64,000 bases of DNA. It comes from Rhodobacter xanthinilyticus (GTDB lineage: Bacteria > Pseudomonadota > Alphaproteobacteria > Rhodobacterales > Rhodobacteraceae). Of this stretch, positions 31,720 through 36,096 are shown one piece after another. The notes under the pieces are model-generated. The model had not been told where the DNA came from. It saw nothing but the letters and a program-made list of their open reading frames with translations, and searched no databases. Each line of letters begins with the position of its first letter. The stretch's first letter is position 1. The position numbers and the translations under genes are program-made. The DNA is taken from NCBI RefSeq assembly GCF_001856665.1, contig NZ_CP017781.1, positions 682,001-746,000 of the forward strand, given 5' to 3'.

Positions 31720-33882
<2,163 letters not shown>

Positions 33883-34016: not shown

Positions 34017-34586
34017 TCAGACCTGCGCGTCGAGGATCTCGAGAAGACCCGACATCGTATAGCCGAGGGTCAGCACGCCTTGGGGGCTCGCCGAGCCCTT
34101 CGGCACGTCGATCTTGAAGACCGAGGCCTTGCGGTTCTCGATATTGTCCGAGACGCGGATATAGACGGTATCGGCGGCCTCACCCGGGACGATGCGCTCG
34201 ATCGAGCCGATCGCGCCGCCGTCGGCGGTCACCACCGCGCCGGGCTGGCCGGCATCGGCGTCATTCTTGGCAAGGCCCGCCTGATCGTCGAGCACTTCGC
34301 TCACCGGCAGCGCGGCGGTGTTGTCCGAGGTCTTGACCGAGGCGGCGGCGCCGGTCTTCACATCGGCGATGCCGTATTGCGAGAGCGCGGCATCCGAGCC
34401 GAGCGAGGGGTTGGGCGCCACGACGCCGGCGTTTTGCGGGGCCTCGGCCATCGGCTGCGAGGCGATGCCCATCTTGTAATCGATCAGGCCGTGTTGGCCA
34501 TCGGCGTCACTGGCCTGCGCGGCGAAGGGCAGGGCAAGGGCGCCGGCGGTGATCATCGAGCTCATCAGAAGGGTCGAACGTTTCAT
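34017..34586 (-). CDS. Secreted PRC-barrel domain protein
   Basis: A 189-residue protein with a signal peptide (LLMSSMITAGALALPFAAQA) and a C-terminal PRC-barrel-like domain (VLDDQAGLAKNDADAGQPGA; IGSIERIVPGEAADTVYIRV; VFKIDVPKGSASPQGVLTLG). A low-complexity linker of about 60 residues separates the two. Such periplasmic PRC proteins are common in Rhodobacteraceae and poorly characterised. It lies downstream of, and in the same direction as, a candidate small RNA and a LysR regulator. Confidence 0.8.
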   Translation of the reverse strand: MKRSTLLMSSMITAGALALPFAAQASDADGQHGLIDYKMGIASQPMAEAPQNAGVVAPNPSLGSDAALSQYGIADVKTGAAASVKTSDNTAALPVSEVLDDQAGLAKNDADAGQPGAVVTADGGAIGSIERIVPGEAADTVYIRVSDNIENRKASVFKIDVPKGSASPQGVLTLGYTMSGLLEILDAQV

Positions 34587-34754: not shown

Positions 34755-34840
34755 AAAAAAAATGGCCGAGACGAAGCTCGGCCTTAGTCCAACAGGGAGG
34801 TAGAAGCTGCTGAGAGTTTCCTCTGATCAGCGGCTTCGAT
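34755..34840 (-). ncRNA. Candidate small regulatory RNA with exposed anti-Shine-Dalgarno segment
   Basis: On the minus strand, a promoter-like pair (34846-34874) is followed by about 86 nt. The 5' part folds into a hairpin (34803-34837): GAAGC, GCUG and AGAG pair with CUCU, CAGC and GCUUC around a GAAA tetraloop, with a 3-base bulge and one mismatch. The middle is unpaired and holds UACCUCCCU, complementary to Shine-Dalgarno sequences. The 3' end is a perfect terminator: GGCCGAG, 6-base loop, CTCGGCC, A, then eight T (34755-34783). It lies alone in the 341-base gap between the LysR and PRC-barrel genes. No open frame fits. The architecture matches trans-acting small RNAs; targets are unknown. 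Confidence 0.7.
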
Positions 34841-34845
34841 GCTGC

Positions 34846-34874
34846 ATTTATGGGCGGTTTGTGAATCGTTCAAG
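34846..34874 (-). promoter_or_regulatory. RpoH-like promoter of the candidate small RNA
   Basis: On the minus strand CTTGAA (34869-34874), a 14-base spacer, and CCCATAAAT (34846-34854). This is close to the heat-shock sigma consensus CTTGAA-N(11-16)-CCCATNT. A sigma-70 reading (TTGAAC with a weak -10) is poorer. Confidence 0.5.
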
Positions 34875-34927
34875 GAGAATCGTGCTGCGCATGCAGCATA
34901 TCAGCCATGCGGCTGCGGCATGGCTGG

Positions 34928-35836
34928 TTAATCGCCGATCAGATCGCCGGTTTGCTGGCGCCGGTAGGCGGAGATTTCCTCCTGCACGAAATCGCGGAAG
35001 GCGGTGACGCGGCGCGATTGGCGCAGCTCTTCGGGATAGGCGAGGAACACCGGCACCTCGATCGACTCGATCTCTGGCAGGACGCGTTCGAGCGCGGGGA
35101 AATCGACGGTGAGATAATCGGGCAGGACGCCGATGCCGATATGGTTCAACACGCCCTGCAAGACGCCGAAATAGTTGTTCACCGTCAGCGTCGAATGCAC
35201 CTCCTGCGCGAGGATCTGCTGCACGAGCTGGGCGCCGGCGGAGACCTGCGGGGTCGCGGGGTTCTGGCAGATCAGCCGATGTTTGGCGAGATCTTCGAGC
35301 CGGTGCGGGCGGCCTGCGCGCTCAAGATATTGGGGCGAGGCGTAAAGGCGCATCTTGATGTTGAGAAGCCGCTTGCGGATCAGATCCGCCTGCGCGGGCT
35401 CCTTCATGCGGATCGCGACATCGGCCTCGCGCATCGGCAGATCGAGCACACGCTCCTCGAGCAGCAGGTCGATCTTCAGCTCGGGGTAGCGCTCGTAGAG
35501 CTTCACCAGCCGCGGCGCGAGCCACAGCGTGCCAAAGCCCACCGTCGTCGTCACCCGCAGCTCGCCAAAGACCTCCTCCTCGGAATCGCGGATCCGCGCC
35601 GCGGCGCTGTCGAGCTTTTTCGCCATCGTCGAGGTCGCCTCGAAGAGCAGTTCGCCCTGTTCGGTCAGGATCAGCCCGCGCGCATGGCGGTGAAAGAGCG
35701 TCGTGCCAAGCGCCTCCTCGAGCGCCCGGATCTGCCGGCTGACGGCCGATTGCGACAGGTGCAGCGCATCGCCCGCATGCGTCAGCGAGCCGGCATCCGC
35801 CACGGCGTGAAAAATTCTCAGCTTGTCCCAATCCAT
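34928..35836 (-). CDS. LysR-family transcriptional regulator
   Basis: A 302-residue regulator. The N-terminal helix-turn-helix is MDWDKLRIFHAVADAGSLTH, then LHLSQSAVSRQIRALEEALG; the effector-binding domain begins near residue 95. It is the single-gene type without a divergently transcribed metabolic partner; murI is divergent but 260 bases away. Start at ATG 35836 matches the family N-terminus; the frame remains open upstream without similarity. Effector unknown. Confidence 0.88.
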   Translation of the reverse strand: MDWDKLRIFHAVADAGSLTHAGDALHLSQSAVSRQIRALEEALGTTLFHRHARGLILTEQGELLFEATSTMAKKLDSAAARIRDSEEEVFGELRVTTTVGFGTLWLAPRLVKLYERYPELKIDLLLEERVLDLPMREADVAIRMKEPAQADLIRKRLLNIKMRLYASPQYLERAGRPHRLEDLAKHRLICQNPATPQVSAGAQLVQQILAQEVHSTLTVNNYFGVLQGVLNHIGIGVLPDYLTVDFPALERVLPEIESIEVPVFLAYPEELRQSRRVTAFRDFVQEEISAYRRQQTGDLIGD

Positions 35837-36096
35837 GGCGGCTCTCTCGATACTGGTACGCGGCAGGCGCGCGAGTTCTATCCTAACCCAGCGTGGATTA
35901 ACAAACATGTTTCGTCTGAAATCCTTGTGAGGCCAAGATATTTCGGCATTTCCCGGCCCTTGGCGCCGGGCGCGTTCACAAACCGCCCAAACCGCAGGCA
36001 GAACGCATTTCGGGCGTTTATTTCCCACCGCGAGAGGCTTAGAAGGGGCCATCCGCCCCGGCGATGCGACCGGCGGCGAGGCTCGGGGAGGCAGGC

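Follow-up and report, generated by a model that had tools for sequence, protein, structure and literature searches.

SorY (RSs1543, Rfam RF02651) of Rhodobacter sphaeroides is a small RNA with its own promoter that influences the stability of takP mRNA (PMC6238624). It depends on RpoHI/RpoHII, co-precipitates with Hfq and lowers malate import. A second RNA of this species, SorX (RSs2461, RF02784), is also stress-induced and is cut from the 3′ untranslated region (3′ UTR) of ompR-1. The alpha-r8 RNAs include MmgR/suhB (RF00519) and SisA-D of Caulobacter; SisA-D act through an anti-Shine-Dalgarno 10-mer and are sponged by CrfA (PMC12559287). We describe a small RNA encoded on the minus strand at 34755..34839 of a 64,000-nt stretch of R. 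xanthinilyticus (contig NZ_CP017781.1), called the window below, which is very probably the SorY orthologue of this species.

Identification of the RNA as SorY

At a permissive threshold, the Rfam SorY model matches the RNA over its full length (model positions 1-83 of 83, window positions 34836-34756; 60.3 bits, E 9.8e-12), and the same search over 198 genomes of the same family gave matches in 187 at E 0.01. A covariance search against Rfam and related genomes had been proposed by the first-pass annotation of the window, which had been made from the letters only. One of the genomes, G051, is taken as R. sphaeroides 2.4.1 or a close strain; its SorY match begins at G051:C4:1632645, and position 1,632,642, where SorY of R. 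sphaeroides is published to start (PMC6238624), is 3 nt away. The RNA is identical to G051 SorY at 73 of 90 aligned columns, and both genomes have the gene order LysR - SorY - purL, the feature on which the orthology rests. The same LysR gene stands beside most SorY-type loci tested, as does purL where the locus extended far enough. The predicted start, carried over from R. sphaeroides, falls at 34839, with a TTG 34 nt ahead of it in both species, and the predicted end lies in a T run.

The full-length match and the conserved gene order rule out the earlier view of an undescribed-looking RNA. The first-pass annotation had named RpoH-dependent RNAs of R. sphaeroides while leaving homology to them undecided; SorY, an RpoHI/RpoHII RNA of that species, was not among its examples. 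What appeared undescribed thus becomes a named RNA found in most genomes of the family, a distribution that may be new. We estimate at roughly 90% the probability that this is the SorY orthologue, an RpoH-type stress RNA of about 85 nt that would pair with Shine-Dalgarno regions with the aid of Hfq.

Two points weigh against this reading, as do the pairings with takP and its paralogue and one of two site screens given below. The RNA is known in R. xanthinilyticus from its sequence alone, and its 60.3 bits lie below the Rfam gathering score of 111 bits; at default thresholds, Rfam gives no match anywhere in the 64-kb window. Among the 198 genomes, only G051 passes this cut-off, which therefore conceals SorY in 186 of the 187 matching genomes. 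We treat the gathering score of RF02651 as a database threshold and not as a biological feature, and it looks too strict for annotation.

Promoter and structure

The promoter (34846..34874, minus strand) can be read directly: a -35 CTTGAA at 34874-34869 is followed after 14 nt by the -10 CCCATAAAT at 34854-34846, where R. sphaeroides SorY has CCCTAAAT. Its sequence and distance to the start fit the RpoHI/RpoHII type, and RpoH dependence is predicted on this basis. In R. sphaeroides, promoters of both sigma factors carry TTG at -36 to -34, with T-9 for RpoHI and C-14 T-13 for RpoHII (PMC3441632). Counted from TTG, both -9 and -13 are T in the window promoter, but the position at which RpoHII promoters prefer C is A, which may point towards RpoHI; in the G051 promoter this position is C. 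Among the 103 orthologues described below, TTG was located in the scanned stretch of 96 and in none of the other 7; the bases that follow it fit the RpoH pattern, the anchor having been chosen partly by those same bases. One RpoH gene of R. xanthinilyticus exceeds the NCBI cut-off of 323.1 bits; a second scores 267.6 bits, and a third match is weaker still, at 142 bits.

Downstream of the start, a 5′ hairpin with a GAAA loop (34803..34837) and an intrinsic terminator (34755..34783) flank an unpaired UACCUCCCU at 34802-34794. The terminator consists of a 7-bp stem (34783-34777 with 34770-34764) and eight T (34762-34755), and was recovered independently by a pattern scan with a chance expectation of 0.6 in the scanned region. 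Between the two hairpins lies the single-stranded seed ACCUCCCUGUUGGAC (34787..34801), which includes the anti-Shine-Dalgarno CCUCCCU. The predicted RNA folds at -32.2 kcal/mol, compared to -22.1 (sd 3.1) for shuffled sequences, 1 of 200 being as good. All these parts lie where the first-pass annotation had put them on the minus strand, and both promoter sequence and predicted fold agree with its proposal of an RpoH-type RNA with an exposed anti-Shine-Dalgarno segment. Its statement that no open frame competes holds for the minus strand, where the mechanical frame list contains none of at least 60 aa over the RNA, but on the opposite strand an 84-aa GTG-started frame overlaps it.

Conservation in the family

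Conservation was examined in a sample blind to the seed. From 120 genomes of the same family, 115 have an orthologue of the LysR gene, and the DNA downstream of it was read in 110 (the 5 weakest were left out), as 30 loci and 80 stretches chosen only for the LysR gene. A 17-nt SorY core with at most two mismatches was present in 103 of the 110 regions (71 with none, 31 with one and 1 with two), compared to 5 mismatches for the best antisense match in any region. L190, counted among the seven regions without the core, is cut by a contig end and has a SorY match 107 nt from LysR, which leaves six valid regions without SorY. In these 103 orthologues, fetched without regard to the seed, ACCTCCCTGTTGGACT is exact in 99, and a run of at least five T follows the core in all.

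In 101 of 103 orthologues the 5′ arm, although variable in sequence, is more stable than the average of 20 shuffles of itself. Since the 5′ hairpin escaped RNAalifold when run on a MAFFT alignment, arms were anchored before pairs were counted; the outer four pairs could be anchored in 69 orthologues, the other 34 being dropped for unmatched anchors. For the seven inner pairs of these 69, 64% of cells are paired, compared to 50% in shuffled data (maximum 56 in 500 shuffles); double changes number 99, compared to 50 (maximum 70). Since the shuffling ignores relatedness, the covariation is strong without amounting to a formal test. The hairpin of the window is itself re-paired by compensatory changes relative to R. 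sphaeroides SorY; such changes, the absence of which in homologous loci had been named beforehand as refuting, are present. Seed and hairpin are conserved beyond the controls used. A 15-nt seed that hardly changes, joined to a hairpin whose pairs change freely, marks out the working part of the RNA.

An upstream element that seems specific to SorY

A conserved element with ATGC/GCAT half-sites, a proposed operator, lies at 34883..34926 on the minus strand (positions -87 to -44), in the interval that separates the -35 from the LysR stop codon. Of 103 orthologues, 83 carry its consensus, GCATAnCGGnnATGCTGCA, with at most 7 mismatches out of 19, usually 95-109 nt ahead of the core; a downstream window gave 3 of 102, and mononucleotide shuffles average 9.7 mismatches. 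As the consensus was derived from the same sequences, it is the controls that carry the weight. Exact half-sites in 86 aligned copies are GCAT at 0 (74), ATGC at -11 (66), ATGC at +11 (41) and GCAT at +25 (only 20). After copies with at most 6 mismatches, 64 of the 71 CTTG occurrences scanned put their first T at +36 or +37.

This element seems to go with SorY and not with LysR. It is kept at two SorY copies that stand apart from LysR, in G034 (about 174 kb away, 3 mismatches) and in G105 (1.5 kb away, 5 mismatches). The six valid LysR-downstream regions without SorY show 6-9 mismatches to the consensus over about 500-600 nt, and the DNA upstream of LysR in 30 loci shows 5-8 mismatches over 420 nt and both strands. 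The retrieved loci overlap and over-represent the surroundings of SorY; they contain 72 near-matches with at most 3 mismatches, of which 68 precede the SorY core, 3 are of the same kind on the other strand and 1 (L075) lies elsewhere.

Could the element instead be the end of the LysR transcript, as a terminator or 3′ UTR structure? In the window it follows the LysR stop codon directly, and a 9-bp inverted repeat lies within it. However, it stays with SorY where SorY has left LysR (loci L139 and L156), only background matches follow LysR in the regions without SorY, and its primary sequence and its spacing from the -35 are both conserved, which makes this explanation improbable. We infer that the element is an operator of SorY, with the adjacent LysR as the first candidate to bind it; in size and position the element would suit a LysR-type tetramer. 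The literature around SorY, excluding the original SorY paper, contains no mention of this ATGC/GCAT element in the parts available; it may be in print, and is possibly new.

Given this SorY-specific element, a second regulator is predicted, and a search for an inducing signal becomes possible. A broader proposal, which we hold tentatively and at somewhat less than even odds, is that SorY is, in its whole family, under RpoH together with a dedicated transcription factor acting on the half-site array (spacings 11, 11 and 14; its end lies just upstream of the -35), joining stress and metabolite signals, and that SorX, SorY and alpha-r8 form one alphaproteobacterial family. If true, the RNA would combine the two signals before nutrient uptake is cut.

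Predicted targets and mode of action

In the mechanism that we propose, an RpoH sigma factor with RNA polymerase would transcribe the non-coding RNA of about 85 nt under stress. The 5′ hairpin and the terminator hairpin would shield its ends and keep ACCUCCCUGUUGGAC single-stranded. The seed, helped by Hfq as inferred from R. sphaeroides, could then pair with Shine-Dalgarno regions such as ...CAACAGGGAGG..., and block or destabilise mRNAs, those of uptake transporters among them. The SorY orthologue probably silences nutrient-uptake genes in stress. A similar way of working is found in AbcR1/AbcR2 of Rhizobiales, where transporter genes are regulated by RNA through a short motif.

Target prediction with the seed, as proposed in the first-pass annotation, gave a divided result. 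Duplex energies (in kcal/mol) are reported for the seed alone, against a small and crude background of 27 starts. In R. xanthinilyticus, the mRNA of a branched-chain amino-acid binding protein (G000:C1:1912040) pairs over its Shine-Dalgarno sequence through 12 contiguous bases (-23.3), and an enoyl-CoA-hydratase-like start reaches -23.0; the R. sphaeroides takP start reaches -22.8. For each of these three, 0 of 27 background starts are as good. PDB 2hzk is the best match, over all 365 residues, of the protein that we take for R. sphaeroides TakP; the entry says SmoM, and we assume that 2hzk is TakP. By contrast with R. sphaeroides, the takP orthologue of R. xanthinilyticus (76% identity) gives -9.9, a value that 26 of 27 background starts equal or better. 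A 67% takP paralogue beside it gives -15.2 (10 of 27 at least as good), an energy that depends on the stretch used, being -25.1 with terminator bases. Read strictly, the prediction of takP pairing fails in R. xanthinilyticus.

Perfect 12-nt seed matches occur just before the start codon of Peripla_BP_6 binding-protein genes in five sampled genomes. A screen of 100 genomes for TCCAACAGGGAG before ATG, in which antisense-looking sites were set aside, took 20 sites, 3 of which proved antisense, and left out at least two other candidates (G031:C3:63275 and G025:C5:142839). According to Pfam, 14 of 18 genes (17 and the R. xanthinilyticus one) encode transporters; a permuted pattern gave 1 of 10 (Fisher p 0.001). 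A second screen with CAACAGGGAGGA, for which loci were available at 30 of 38 sites, with 27 usable frames and 17 in the control, gave 13 of 27 transporters against 11-12 of 17 in the control, the opposite direction (p 0.21 with 12). The idea that the seed as such points to transporters is thus not upheld, one control supporting it and the other not; the latter result implies that AGGGAGGA-type Shine-Dalgarno sequences themselves often precede binding-protein genes.

The R. xanthinilyticus genome has a raw excess of CAACAGGGAGG-like sites (55, against 9 for the reversed pattern), which was also rejected as evidence: among 30 loci, 6 belong to one repeat and 2 are antisense to the RNAs themselves. 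This repeat carries CAGCAGGGAGG with identical flanks at six places (L197, L201, L203, L204, L213 and L216); it is perhaps an insertion sequence, and it mimics a seed target.

A different role would be that SorY mainly titrates, or is titrated by, another RNA or protein, mRNA pairing being secondary. CrfA provides a precedent, as it sequesters SisA through a conserved element (PMC12559287). The near-invariance of the seed over 15 nt, more than the 6-8 nt that an anti-Shine-Dalgarno function requires, goes in the same direction, as does the poor takP pairing in R. xanthinilyticus. The effect of SorY on takP mRNA in R. sphaeroides (PMC6238624) argues against it, and we consider such a role unlikely compared to direct silencing of mRNAs.

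Relation to SorX, alpha-r8 and other RNAs

The window RNA shares with SorX an identical ACCUCCCUGUUGGAC and a similar terminator, and the SorX model scores 37.9 bits on it (gathering 46.6). These features would be accounted for if the RNA were SorX or a duplicate of it. The SorY score is higher, though, and SorX, as a piece of the ompR-1 3′ UTR, differs from the window RNA with its own promoter-like sequence, its LysR gene upstream and its LysR-purL neighbourhood. In addition, the upstream element (at most 7 mismatches) was found at 0 of 41 SorX-type loci tested, and the SorX assignment is accordingly very improbable. Hardly tenable is a new RpoH-dependent RNA unrelated to SorY, with a convergent CCUCC seed, which the sub-threshold score and the unlike 5′ hairpin sequence could suggest but which the full-length covariance match, the 73 identical columns, the same neighbours and the shared 34-nt TTG-start distance oppose, and which synteny across the family already contradicts.

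As in the window RNA, CCUCCCU is followed by a GC-rich terminator in alpha-r8, with a different remainder of the seed; the suhB model gives 17.3 bits on the window RNA (E 0.41, gathering 41). When the whole class was searched with SorY (289 genomes, E 1e-4), 10 genomes gave matches, where chance would yield about 0.03. Four belong to the same family and six are weak matches (33-37 bits) elsewhere. Two of the latter, L452 and L453, are alpha-r8 above the Rfam cut-off (suhB, 54.5 and 47.8 bits), and L449 is BjrC1505 (73.2 bits, above cut-off). L450 has SorX at 44.9 and suhB at 37.7 bits, each just below cut-off, L451 has SorX at 42.6 bits, below cut-off, and L447 matches SorY only (36.5 bits). 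The RNAs in L450, L452 and L453, which come from other alphaproteobacterial families, each match suhB together with SorX or SorY, and this suggests that SorX, SorY and alpha-r8 (MmgR/Sis) may be one wider family split by Rfam, with convergence on an anti-Shine-Dalgarno sequence plus terminator as the alternative. The link of SorY/SorX to alpha-r8 may be new. The mRNA targets of SisA include uptake receptors (PMC12559287), and if the kinship is true, target data from Caulobacter could guide work on SorY.

R. xanthinilyticus has a second RNA with an identical seed, at L121:1496-1571 (G000:C1:147127-147198), just downstream of a frame that by eye is short-chain-dehydrogenase-like; its SorX score of 34.1 bits is below cut-off and it is possibly a divergent SorX. 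L122 (G000:C1:1780761-1780840) holds a third match, which is weak (SorX/SorY, 36.5 and 29.9 bits). Seed-bearing RNAs also occur in tandem: in L456, about 150 nt separate two SorX matches that exceed the cut-off, and L005 has one above cut-off with a weaker second about 115 nt on.

Neighbouring genes

Downstream of SorY, the gene at 31720..33882 (minus strand) is a syntenic neighbour only; it is purL-like, a presumed name given from its sequence. The interval between SorY and purL encodes a secreted-looking protein of 189 aa (34017-34586) with no Pfam match. Directly upstream of SorY, the LysR-type regulator gene occupies 34928..36052 on the minus strand; its product has the Pfam domains HTH_1 and LysR_substrate, and its likely start, judged by eye, is near 35848.
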